Under the pieces are notes generated by a model that made no database searches, was not told the origin of the DNA, and saw only the letters and a list, made by a program, of their open reading frames with translations. DNA of 45,976 nucleotides, from NCBI GenBank assembly GCA_031276855.1, contig JAISMH010000056.1, forward strand, positions 1 to 45,976, given 5' to 3'. The position numbers and the translations under genes were made by a program. Shown here one piece after another: positions 26,259 through 30,391 of the stretch. This DNA comes from Synergistaceae bacterium. Its GTDB lineage: Bacteria > Synergistota > Synergistia > Synergistales > Aminobacteriaceae. The stretch's first letter is position 1. Every line of letters begins with the position of its first letter.

Positions 26259-26386
26259 GCAGGGCAGACGCATCAACTTGCAACCCGTTGATATAGCTAG
26301 TTTTACGCCCTATATAAATACCTAGGCAAAATACGCAAATCTAGAATTTACAATGGTTTATGTATAGCTTCGTGCGTCTGCCCTGC
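26259..26386. mobile_element. 128-bp A+T-rich element with 14-bp terminal inverted repeats
   Basis: GCAGGGCAGACGCA (26259-26272) is the exact reverse complement of 26373-26386. The 100-base interior is A+T-rich, codes for nothing recognisable, and contrasts with the GC-rich flanks. This is the form of a MITE, or of a long RNA hairpin. No convincing target duplication is visible. Confidence 0.55.
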
Positions 26387-26484: not shown

Positions 26485-27168
26485 ATGGGCGTGCTGCAAT
26501 TTCTCGGACATTCGGCTTTTTACGTGGAAGGGGAAGGAATCAGGGCTCTCATCGACCCGTTTCTGTCGGGCAATGCCATGGCCTCCGAAGGGCCGGAGGC
26601 GCGCGCGAAACTGGACTACATTTTCGTGACCCACGCCCACGGCGACCACCTCGGCGACGCGCCCGCCATCGCAAAACGCACCGGCGCGACGGTCGTCGCC
26701 TCGAACGAGCTGGCCGCTTACTTGGCGGGCAAGGGACTCAAAACGATCGGGATGCACATCGGGGGGAGGTCGAAATTTCCCTTCGGAAGGGTCAAACTGA
26801 CCCCGGCCTTTCACGGGTCCTCGGTCTCCGAGGGCGGGCACGTGGTCTGCGCGGACGTTCCGTGCGGCTTTCTTCTTGAGATCGGCGGCAGAAAAATATA
26901 CCACGCCGGAGACACGGGGCTGACCTCCGAAATGACGCTGCTCGAAGCGGAGGGCGTCGATATCGCGCTGCTCCCCATCGGCGGGCACTACGTCATGGAC
27001 ACGGACGACGCCGTGCGCGCCGTGGGCTTCATCAAACCCCGGAAAACCGTCCCCATGCATTACGGCACCTTCCCTCAGATCGAGGCGAACCCCGCCGAAT
27101 TCGCGGCCAAGGCGGCCGGCATGACCGAGGTCGTCGTGATGAAACCCGGCGATACACTGCCGTTCTGA
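26485..27168 (+). CDS. UPF0173-type metallo-beta-lactamase-fold hydrolase
   Basis: A 227-residue cytoplasmic MBL-fold protein of the UPF0173/UlaG-like group. The metal motif HxHxDH is H50-A-H52-G-D54-H55 in VTHAHGDHLGD; further ligands are in FHGSS, HAGDTGLTSE and MHYGTFP. The substrate is unknown; members may hydrolyse lactones or phosphodiesters. The ATG at 26485 has GGGGGA nine bases upstream; a TTG nine bases earlier is too close to it. It opens a plus-strand run with 34 bases before the ankyrin gene, leading to the Memo, AMMECR1 and radical SAM genes. Confidence 0.88.
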   Translation: MGVLQFLGHSAFYVEGEGIRALIDPFLSGNAMASEGPEARAKLDYIFVTHAHGDHLGDAPAIAKRTGATVVASNELAAYLAGKGLKTIGMHIGGRSKFPFGRVKLTPAFHGSSVSEGGHVVCADVPCGFLLEIGGRKIYHAGDTGLTSEMTLLEAEGVDIALLPIGGHYVMDTDDAVRAVGFIKPRKTVPMHYGTFPQIEANPAEFAAKAAGMTEVVVMKPGDTLPF

Positions 27169-27202
27169 CGAACGGACATTGAATACATAAAGGAACAGAC
27201 AA

Positions 27203-27985
27203 ATGGCAGAAACGGATTTTGACGCGGAGAAAACGGCAGTTTCGGAGAAGAGAAGCCTCTCGCCGAGGCAGAAAAAGCGCGCGGCGGCGATCATCGCGGC
27301 CGGCGTCACGGTTTTTTTGCTGGGCGCGGTCGGGTGGGTATTCTTGTTCCCCCATCAGAAGATTCCCGCGCACGCGAACCTCGCCCCTCTCCCCTTCCCG
27401 GAGATCGACGGGAAACTGCTCCAGGCCGTCAGAGACGACGACGCCGGCGAGGTTGCCCGTCTGCTGAATATGGGCGCCGATTTCAGCGCGAAAGACAGTT
27501 TCGGGGTCAGCGCGATGAAAGGGGCCATCGCGCTGAACAGGCTGGACATCGTCCGTCAATTTCTCGAAGCGAAGGGCGGCTCCTCTCTCATTCGGAAGGA
27601 CAATTCCTTGCTGGTCTACGCCGTCGTGCAAAATCGGGCGGAGATAGTTCGGGAATTTCTGAAATTGGGGCTCGACATCGACAAAGTCGATAAAAACGGC
27701 TATACGCCGCTGATGTACGCCATCGACAGAAACCTCGCGGAGATCGCCCGCGCACTCCTGAAAGCGGGGGCTGGCGCCAACCGGATCGACCGCTACGGAC
27801 AGACACCCCTGATACAGGCGGTGACCGTGGGGAGCCCGGACATGATCTCTCTGCTTCTGGAGTCCGGGGCGGACCCGCGCATCGTATCCCCCGGCGGGGA
27901 GACGGCGATGAGCATCGCCCAGAGAAAAAACAGGAACGTGGTCATCTCCCTCCTGATAAACGCCGGCTCTCCCCTTTTCTATTGA
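27203..27985 (+). CDS. Membrane-anchored ankyrin-repeat protein
   Basis: A 260-residue protein. A charged cytoplasmic N-terminus (1-28) with SPRQKKR is followed by one transmembrane helix (about 29-50) and then by five to six ankyrin repeats from about 70 to 258, including GYTPLMYAIDRNLAEIARALLKAG-type units (DKNGYTPLMYAI, DRYGQTPLIQAV, SPGGETAMSIA). Positive-inside topology puts the repeats in the periplasm. Ankyrin repeats bind proteins; no enzymatic domain is visible. It lies 34 bases after the MBL hydrolase and 22 before the Memo gene, so it is very likely co-transcribed with the AmmeMemoRadiSam trio. Confidence 0.85.
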   Translation: MAETDFDAEKTAVSEKRSLSPRQKKRAAAIIAAGVTVFLLGAVGWVFLFPHQKIPAHANLAPLPFPEIDGKLLQAVRDDDAGEVARLLNMGADFSAKDSFGVSAMKGAIALNRLDIVRQFLEAKGGSSLIRKDNSLLVYAVVQNRAEIVREFLKLGLDIDKVDKNGYTPLMYAIDRNLAEIARALLKAGAGANRIDRYGQTPLIQAVTVGSPDMISLLLESGADPRIVSPGGETAMSIAQRKNRNVVISLLINAGSPLFY

Positions 27986-28007
27986 TTTCCCGAAGGAGGC
28001 GAAAGAT

Positions 28008-28823
28008 TTGGCCGGAAGCGGAACTTGGGTGTGGGCGGCCCTCATGCCGCACCCTCCGATCATCGTTCCCGGGGTCGGAGGCGGAAGGGAAAAGGACGCG
28101 GCCGTCACCCTCGCGGGCGTCGCCGAGCTGATGAAGCGGCTGAACGCGCTCGGCGCTCCGGATCGGATTTTACTGCTCTCCCCCCATCAGGCCTATGTTC
28201 CGGGCGCTTTCGCGATCAACGGGGCTCCCCTGATACAGGGGGGACTTTCCCTGTTCGGCGCGCCGGACGCCTCTTTCGAGCTGCGAACCCCGGTGGAGGG
28301 CGTGAACGCGCTCGCCGCGCACCTCGCGGCGAAGAATGTTCCGGTGGCCCTGACGGGCAGCGCCAGCCTCGTTCACGACCAGGGCTCGACGGTTCCGCTG
28401 TATTTTCTCGAAAAAAGCTATGGGAAGCTGCCGGAAGTCGTCCTGTCGAGCCCCATCGGACTCGGCAAAACCCTGTCGCTGGAGCTCGGGCGCGCGCTCG
28501 CTTCGTTCGGCGACGGCCGGCGGTGGGGCCTGCTCGCGAGCGGCGACTTGTCGCACAGGCTGAAACCGGGCGCTCCGGCGGGATTCAGCCCGGCGGGGGC
28601 GGTGTTCGACAAAACGGTTGTCGAGTGCCTCGAACGCGCGGACGCGTCCGCGCTGCTCGCGATGCCGGACGAGACGATCGAGGACGCGGGAGAGTGCGGC
28701 ATGAGGTCGGTCATCGCGATGATCGGCCTGGTCTCGGAGCTGGGGGGGCGGATCGACGTCCTCTCTTATGAAGGACCCTACGGCGTGGGCTATTGCAACG
28801 CGGCAGCCGTGCTTGGGCCGTGA
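28008..28823 (+). CDS. amrB: AmmeMemoRadiSam system protein B (Memo/LigB-like)
   Basis: A 271-residue protein of the Memo family, which has the fold of class III extradiol dioxygenases. Candidate metal or active-site residues are H15 (MPHPPIIVPG), H60 (LLSPHQAY), H123 (LVHDQGSTVP) and H183 (SGDLSH). Starts at TTG 28008 with AAGGAGG nine bases upstream. It is followed by the AMMECR1-domain and radical SAM genes, the conserved trio called AmmeMemoRadiSam. The biochemical role in bacteria is, to my knowledge, not settled. Confidence 0.92.
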   Translation: MAGSGTWVWAALMPHPPIIVPGVGGGREKDAAVTLAGVAELMKRLNALGAPDRILLLSPHQAYVPGAFAINGAPLIQGGLSLFGAPDASFELRTPVEGVNALAAHLAAKNVPVALTGSASLVHDQGSTVPLYFLEKSYGKLPEVVLSSPIGLGKTLSLELGRALASFGDGRRWGLLASGDLSHRLKPGAPAGFSPAGAVFDKTVVECLERADASALLAMPDETIEDAGECGMRSVIAMIGLVSELGGRIDVLSYEGPYGVGYCNAAAVLGP

Positions 28824-28880
28824 GCGGATTAACTTCAATTCAGTATGAGATCGGAGTTGAGATTCGGAGTGAACGATGCA

Positions 28881-29435
28881 ATGACCGGCAAAGGCCATCC
28901 TTACGTCGTACTCGCGAGGCGCGCCGCGGAGCGGTGTTTGCGGCGTGAACCCCTTCCCTCGGGCGGGGCCGAGATAGACCCCGACGAGAGCCTCTGGAAC
29001 CTGAGACGGGCCTGTTTCGTCTCGATAAAAACCCTTTCCGGCGAGTTGCGCGGCTGCATCGGCACGATCGCGCCGGTTCAGCCCTCGCTCGACAGGGAGA
29101 TCGTCGAAAACGCCGTCTCTTCCTCGACGAGAGACCCGAGGTTTCCGCCGATGACGTTCGACGAGCTTTCCGGGGTCGTCTTTTCGGTGGACGTTCTGAG
29201 CGAGCCGGAGAAGGTCGCCGACAGGAGCCTTCTCGACGCCGGGAAATGGGGCGTGATCGTGTCGAAGGGGATGCGGCGCGGGGTGCTGCTGCCGGATCTC
29301 GAAGGCGTGGACACGGTCGAGGCCCAGTTGGAGATCGCCGCGCGCAAGGCCGGCATTTACGATATGAATGGAATCTCCATCGAGCGATTTTCGGTCGACA
29401 GATACCCCGAGCCGGCTTCAGGCTTTTTATCCTGA
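28881..29435 (+). CDS. amrA: AmmeMemoRadiSam system protein A (AMMECR1 domain)
   Basis: A 184-residue AMMECR1-domain protein. The invariant LRGCIG is at 56-61, with SLDREIVENAVSSSTRDPRF and FSVDVLSEPE conserved. The invariant Cys/Arg patch is thought to be functional but the reaction is unknown. ATG 28881 was chosen because the protein then begins MTGKGHPYV, as in relatives, with GGAG 11 bases upstream; an in-frame ATG at 28845 is possible. The leader holds a short duplication (GAGATCGGAGTT/GAGATTCGGAGTG). Eight bases separate its stop from the radical SAM gene. Confidence 0.9.
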   Translation: MTGKGHPYVVLARRAAERCLRREPLPSGGAEIDPDESLWNLRRACFVSIKTLSGELRGCIGTIAPVQPSLDREIVENAVSSSTRDPRFPPMTFDELSGVVFSVDVLSEPEKVADRSLLDAGKWGVIVSKGMRRGVLLPDLEGVDTVEAQLEIAARKAGIYDMNGISIERFSVDRYPEPASGFLS

Positions 29436-29443
29436 TTCACTCT

Positions 29444-30391
29444 ATGCCCGAACCGCCTGTGCTCGAACCGCGCTGGTGGCGTCCGGAGGACGTGAAGGAA
29501 GAAGACGGGAAAGCTCACGAAAAAAACGGAAAAAACTTTTCCGTGTGCGGCCTGTGTTTCCGCGGCTGCAGAATCGCGGACGGCGGCGCCGGCGCGTGCG
29601 GCGCGCGGGCGTACTCGAAAGGGCGTTTTTCCTCTCCGCACTTGGGGCGCTTCGTCTCGGTCGCGGTCGACCCGATAGAGAAAAAGCCGCTCCGCCGGTG
29701 GCGTCCCGGCACGGAAATTCTGTCGCTCGGCGGGCTTCGCTGCAATATGCGCTGTCCCTTCTGCCAGAACCACGCCATCGCGCATCCCGGGCCTCTTCCC
29801 GGACCTCTCTCTTCCGGACGCGGACTTGAACGCGGGATAACCTTCGAGGAACTCACGGCTCTGGCGAAGCGCGCCTCCCTCCGCTCCGTGGCGTACACGT
29901 ACAACGAACCGACGCTTCAGGCGGAGTACATATTCGCCGCGTCGCCTCTTCTGAGGGAGGAGGGAATCGCGACCGTGATGGTCACCAACGGGATGTTTTC
30001 GGAGGAGGTCTGCGAGGAGGCCGTCCGGTTCGTGGACGCCATGAACATCGACGTCAAAACCTTCGACGGCGGGACCTACGAGCGGCTGGGCGGCTCCCTC
30101 GGCACCGTGAAGCGCAATGTGGAGCGCCTTGTGAGGGGCGGTGTGCACGTCGAACTCACCCATCTCGTCGTCCCCGGGGTGAGCGACTCGCCCGGCGATT
30201 TCGCCCTTCTGCTCGACTGGGCGGCAAAGGAAGTGTCCGCCGATATTCCGCTGCACATATCGCGCTATTTCCCGGCGTTCAAATACGACGCTCCACCCAC
30301 GGACGCCGCCCTCATCGAAAAATTTTACCGCATGGCCAAAGGAAAACTGAAGCACGTCTACACCGGAAACCTGGGCCGGGGGTATACGTAG
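29444..30391 (+). CDS. amrS: AmmeMemoRadiSam system radical SAM enzyme
   Basis: A 315-residue radical SAM protein. The 4Fe-4S cluster motif is C100-NMR-C104-PF-C107, followed by QNHAIA; upstream Cys35, 38, 42 and 52 (CGLCFRGC, GACGAR) may bind a second metal or cluster. Also seen: DPIEKKPLRRWRPG, YTYNEPT, TNGMFSEE, DVKTFDGGTYERLGG and HISRYFP. This matches the PflA-like subfamily of the AMMECR1/Memo trio rather than a genuine PFL activase. ATG 29444 lies eight bases after the amrA stop without a strong Shine-Dalgarno, so translational coupling is likely. It converges on the monooxygenase-like gene. Confidence 0.92.
   Translation: MPEPPVLEPRWWRPEDVKEEDGKAHEKNGKNFSVCGLCFRGCRIADGGAGACGARAYSKGRFSSPHLGRFVSVAVDPIEKKPLRRWRPGTEILSLGGLRCNMRCPFCQNHAIAHPGPLPGPLSSGRGLERGITFEELTALAKRASLRSVAYTYNEPTLQAEYIFAASPLLREEGIATVMVTNGMFSEEVCEEAVRFVDAMNIDVKTFDGGTYERLGGSLGTVKRNVERLVRGGVHVELTHLVVPGVSDSPGDFALLLDWAAKEVSADIPLHISRYFPAFKYDAPPTDAALIEKFYRMAKGKLKHVYTGNLGRGYT

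Follow-up and report, generated by a model that had tools for sequence, protein, structure and literature searches.

The stretch of DNA analyzed in this study (hereafter, the window) comprises 45,976 nucleotides from a Synergistaceae bacterium, and five genes are arranged on its plus strand at positions 26485–30391. The first gene (26485–27168, ATG start at 26485) encodes a metal-dependent MBL-fold hydrolase of the UPF0173/PRK00685 family and the second (27203–27985, ATG start at 27203) encodes an ankyrin-repeat protein whose N-terminus carries a single membrane segment; neither is a component of the trio constituted by the subsequent three genes. The trio comprises a LigB/TK2203-like protein, formerly designated "Memo-like" (28008–28823, TTG start at 28008 behind AAGGAGG), an AMMECR1 protein, referred to as AmmeMemoRadiSam system protein A (28845–29435), and a short form of the AmmeMemoRadiSam-type radical SAM enzyme (29444–30391, ATG start at 29444). 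All five co-directional reading frames are located where a first-pass annotation of this DNA had placed them. That annotation gave the successive gaps as 34, 22, 57, and 8 bases; the values for MBL–ankyrin (34), ankyrin–LigB (22), and AMMECR1–radical SAM (8) are correct, whereas 57 requires a second ATG (28881), and the simpler AMMECR1 start at 28845 leaves 21 bases between LigB and AMMECR1. A consensus promoter scan of the five-gene run revealed no site inside it, and an Rfam search of the window yielded no match. The gaps of 8–34 bases and the negative promoter scan are compatible with a shared transcript, which the five genes may form in this genome; by itself, the scan favors neither joint nor separate transcription. 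Upstream of the run, a MITE-like short repeat element of approximately 127 bp (26259–26386, no strand assigned) with 14-bp perfect terminal inverted repeats (GCAGGGCAGACGCA) occupies the space between mraZ and MBL, which are divergently oriented. It has two more copies, 89–90% identical, at G000:C34:251-376 and G000:C128:2527-2652, and a direct repeat of 11 bases, nearly perfect, flanks the latter.

The AMMECR1 protein scores 116.2 bits against TIGR04335, above the curated cut-off of 99 for system protein A, and 137 bits against PF01871. The share of bacteria carrying AMMECR1 is 3.4% among aerobes and 50.7% among anaerobes, and its importance is the highest among the anaerobe indicators of the same study (PMC13386939). 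For the radical SAM enzyme, TIGR04337 is by far the best family, although the score of 194.2 bits, from a match covering model positions 13–286 of 349, lies below the curated cut-off of 220; the deficit accompanies the absence of a C-terminal tail. The CxxC...CxxC tail is found in most homologues and is absent here as well as in about ten others (L001, L002, L004, L010, L047, L050, L053, L059, L071, and L077), and genome-wide short-form matches below or near the cut-off are found in many Synergistaceae. Four N-terminal cysteines (35, 38, 42, and 52) had been noticed in the first-pass annotation and regarded as extra. They are present, but they are invariant, together with the CxxxCxxC triad, in 41 of 41 radical SAM homologues, and the N-terminal Cys4 is thus a hallmark of the family. 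The nearest solved sequence relatives of the radical SAM domain are the PflA-type radical SAM activases (8fo0, 3c8f), at a weak level of similarity (E about 1e-4); unlike these, the enzyme in the window carries the additional N-terminal Cys4, and no glycyl radical enzyme gene was recognized beside it.

The first component of the trio matches PF02900 (LigB) with 107.9 bits, whereas no match was obtained at E 0.01 with the PF01875 (Memo) and protein-B (AmmeMemoRadiSam-B) models, and a PF01875 search of the whole genome found no Memo protein. Aspartate carbamoyltransferase matches of the same protein (E 0.01–0.1) were weak and partial and were discarded. An AlphaFold model of the protein (pLDDT 85, 10 sequences, with a weak stretch at 185–193) best matches TK2203 of Thermococcus kodakarensis (5hee; TM 0.77/0.80), followed by aminophenol and protocatechuate dioxygenases (TM ~0.7) and MEMO1 (7kq8; TM 0.55–0.59). 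Considering the PF02900 match and the fold nearer to TK2203 than to MEMO1, the component is better named LigB/TK2203-like, a superfamily relative of Memo among the Memo/dioxygenase metalloproteins. TK2203 is the best structural match of this model and also of the fusion model described below, although sequence identity is ~20% and TK2203 has an aspartate at the position aligned with C230. None of 47 homologues departs from H15, H60, D180, H183, and C230, and 45 of them keep E229; the protein combines the PCAD/LigB fold with two conserved metal-site histidines, as in class III extradiol dioxygenases. MEMO1 binds iron via H49, H81, and C244, the cysteine being where dioxygenases have Glu, and no dioxygenase activity was found for MEMO1 (PMC11081632). 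H15, H60, and C230 look like the MEMO1 ligands, the correspondence between C230 and C244 being drawn from motif reading, and the likely third-ligand position, with E229 and C230 as candidate ligands, has an invariant cysteine as in MEMO1. Thus, the superfamily fold and the two histidines and one cysteine at seemingly corresponding motif positions are shared with MEMO1, whereas the TM score is only 0.55–0.59 and a family-level sequence match is absent.

The LigB-like and AMMECR1 reading frames of the window are in one frame with two stops between them (TGA GCG GAT TAA ... ATG), and the two components are encoded by a single open reading frame of 429–481 amino acids in 30 of 47 loci. The fusions of Synergistota and Firmicutes (e.g., L006, L007, and L009) share with the window the domains, their order, and the radical SAM gene that follows, and differ in that the window has two reading frames. 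The split state is also found in L001–L004, L010, and others. A high-confidence model of the 467-aa L006 fusion (pLDDT 92, pTM 0.80, 17 sequences) has domains that match the TK2203 and PH0010 structures, with a TM of 0.87 over TK2203. In one single-contig genome, AMMECR1 (G005:C1:1175564-1176062) is split over two frames in a frameshift-like manner.

The conservation of the trio was surveyed in 49 trio or AMMECR1 loci, comprising 48 from relatives and that of the window. The order LigB–AMMECR1–radical SAM is contiguous in 40 of the 49, which bears out the first-pass description of an adjacent and conserved trio. Over 61 genomes, AMMECR1 and the radical SAM gene are both present in 49 and both absent from 8. 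A radical SAM gene lacking AMMECR1 is seen in 4, of which three are partial or border a contig end, and the converse, AMMECR1 lacking a radical SAM gene, is seen in none (Fisher p = 1.7e-7, or 0.023 within the family alone, both uncorrected for shared descent). The co-occurrence holds even though nine loci have no directly adjacent radical SAM gene, and in some relatives that gene is located away from LigB–AMMECR1. Because most relatives make LigB and AMMECR1 as one polypeptide, the radical SAM gene co-occurs even when unlinked, and the cysteine is invariant, the LigB–AMMECR1 fusion is a candidate for a single enzyme. On contig JAISYM010000085.1 the trio is present twice (L001 and L005) in a mirror-symmetric arrangement and with the same scores, a pattern suggestive of a palindromic assembly artefact in that public contig.

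In comparison with the AmmeMemoRadiSam system (TIGR04335/TIGR04337), the window has protein A above its cut-off, a matching radical SAM family, and a metalloprotein of the Memo/dioxygenase superfamily, and its three genes adjoin one another in the order seen in relatives. By contrast, the third component of the system is here a PF02900 LigB protein and not a PF01875 Memo homologue, the radical SAM enzyme is short and below its cut-off, and LigB and AMMECR1 are separate proteins, whereas most relatives have them fused. The trio is accordingly filed as AmmeMemoRadiSam-type and not as a strict member.

The two upstream genes are located elsewhere in relatives. The MBL protein scores 263 bits against NF001911 (cut-off 144), and its nearest solved relative is TM_1162 (3x2z; E 3.7e-72). 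In relatives, hisS–aspS precedes the gene in 11 of 12 loci, and the two nearest MBL copies (75–77% identity) are among these, whereas neither hisS nor MBL adjoins aspS in the genome of the window. No MBL orthologue was found around the 48 related trio loci (~6 kb of flank on either side, shorter where a contig stops), and where both are located on one large contig, MBL and trio are 0.3–1.2 Mb apart (G004, G033, G044, G045, G048, G049, and G060). The ankyrin protein matches PF12796/PF00023 and has a hydrophobic segment at approximately residues 27–49 after basic residues, as read from its sequence. Its orthologues (44–54% identity) occur in ten relatives from several genera of the family (G001, G003, G007, G009, G014, G018, G020, G024, G030, and G032), with variable neighbours including nitronate monooxygenase, PlsY, CNNM, thiamine pyrophosphokinase, and glycerate-kinase-like genes. 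No such orthologue was found beside the trio in the same 48 neighbourhoods, again over flanks of ~6 kb or up to the contig end; the sole ankyrin matches near relatives' trios (L062 and L071) are other ankyrin proteins, and the genomes of the closest trio copies (L001–L004 and L010) contain weak, generic ankyrin matches only. The presence of either gene is independent of AMMECR1 (p = 0.73 for MBL and p = 1 for ankyrin). The first-pass proposal that both genes belong to the trio module consequently fails; the neighbourhood survey it had called for finds neither gene recurring, and the candidate five-gene system of MBL, ankyrin, and trio was rejected on neighbourhoods, co-occurrence, and the other conserved home of MBL. 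As a separate observation, four close relatives (L001, L002, L004, and L010) encode a different MBL-fold protein that adjoins the trio on its upstream side in divergent orientation; it belongs to another subfamily, shares only a short motif with the MBL protein of the window (BLASTP E 0.12), and was rejected as its counterpart.

The surroundings of the trio in relatives indicate where it originally resided. In 23 of 49 loci the trio immediately follows a same-strand queA gene, mostly with gaps of 3–120 bases between queA and LigB (at most 120 bases in 20 of the 23), and ruvC, ruvA, ruvB, and a SpoIID-like gene precede queA and the trio in 21–22 loci; the usual home of the trio is thus ruvCAB–spoIID–queA–[trio]. 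On the 3′ side of the radical SAM gene, hutH is present in 13 loci and mltG–tldD–ftsK in about 11, the names of all non-trio neighbours in these loci being read from the sequences and not from family searches. The histidine ammonia-lyase-like gene follows in 13 Synergistota loci (L049, L054–L057, L060, L061, L063, L064, L066, L067, L073, and L075), with formimidoyltransferase, imidazolonepropionase, and cyclodeaminase-like genes behind it in some of them. In the genome of the window, contig C48 carries spoIID–queA–mltG–ftsK without the trio, and queA and mltG are approximately 40 bases apart. Because this queA–mltG site lacks the trio and aspS lacks MBL, the simplest reading is that the trio and the MBL gene each left an ancestral site and became neighbours in this lineage. 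The five-gene run was found in one genome only, whose genus is represented by a single species in the sample, and selection for the run inside the genus is possible. Nevertheless, the five genes seem to have been brought together by local rearrangement rather than to constitute a new five-part system, and the locus is an already recognized type of trio in an uninformative local context. Considered together, it is probable that the window contains a standard anaerobe-type trio relocated behind MBL and ankyrin genes of other origin, with the last three genes as the functional unit.

The mechanism of the trio that is considered most likely is an inference. Together, the LigB-like protein and AMMECR1 would form a complex whose substrate, a small molecule or a nucleobase, is bound at an iron site of the H15/H60/C230 (or E229) type operating without O2. 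The chemistry would be supplied by the radical SAM enzyme, which would generate the 5′-deoxyadenosyl radical and thereby activate a C–H bond of the substrate, and its N-terminal Cys4 probably holds an auxiliary iron–sulphur cluster. Gene identities, the LigB–AMMECR1 fusion, co-occurrence, and the altered gene locations are observed, whereas the metal, the complex with the radical SAM enzyme, the class of substrate, and the reaction are proposed tentatively, and the scheme as a whole is possible rather than probable. A more specific proposal is that the trio modifies a nucleobase or tRNA, mirrored in an ancestral operon with queA of the queuosine pathway. The same-strand position of queA directly upstream in 23 of 49 loci, mostly at a short distance, is suggestive of nucleobase chemistry, and Burroughs and colleagues reportedly suggested that Memo systems modify nucleotide bases or isoprenoids (J Biol Chem, 2019). 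However, queA remains at its site here while the trio has gone, the 3′ neighbours of the trio are hutH or mltG–tldD–ftsK, and queA and ruvCAB belong to the housekeeping genes, whose clustering often carries no functional meaning, such that the link can equally be housekeeping synteny; tRNA or nucleobase modification is therefore considered unlikely.

It is still less likely that the five genes constitute one pathway, in which the MBL hydrolase would process a substrate or product of the trio and the periplasm-facing ankyrin protein would serve as a binding partner. The common strand, the short gaps, the negative promoter scan, and the divergent MBL-fold gene beside the trio of four relatives are in its favor, whereas neither orthologue was found within ~6 kb of the trio, or up to the contig end, in 48 related loci, and phyletic correlation is absent. 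Moreover, no clear ankyrin orthologue is present in the genomes with the closest trios, the two genomes that have a close MBL keep it by aspS, and the divergent MBL of relatives is not detectably related by sequence to that of the window beyond the short motif. It is very improbable that the run is a new operon through which the trio recruited the UPF0173 hydrolase and the periplasm-facing ankyrin protein; if true, the reaction of the trio would be coupled in this lineage to hydrolysis and to a partner in the cell envelope. An equally slight probability is given to the LigB-like protein being an O2-dependent extradiol ring-cleaving dioxygenase in aromatic degradation. The PF02900 match and the fold close to aminophenol and protocatechuate dioxygenases would agree with ring cleavage, but we know of no true ring-cleaving enzyme that occurs as an AMMECR1 fusion. 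Furthermore, the conserved EC pair at the third-ligand position is MEMO1-like and dioxygenase activity was not found for MEMO1 (PMC11081632), and an O2-using role is disfavored because AMMECR1 is far commoner among anaerobes than among aerobes and leads the anaerobe indicators in importance (PMC13386939). Least probable of all is a mis-join in the metagenome assembly, for although the genome is in 182 contigs and the repeat element is nearby at 26259–26386, the repeat is outside the run with other copies only 89–90% identical, the junctions are short intergenic spaces of 8–34 bases, and the genome yielded a single AMMECR1, a single UPF0173 MBL, and a single full-length orthologous ankyrin copy.

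As an uncharacterized gene set, the trio is widespread in anaerobes and archaea, and its human relatives AMMECR1 and MEMO1 are linked to disease. The survey strips two false partners, the MBL hydrolase and the ankyrin protein, from the trio and sharpens the true ones, and the point of interest is the trio itself and not its neighbours in this genome.
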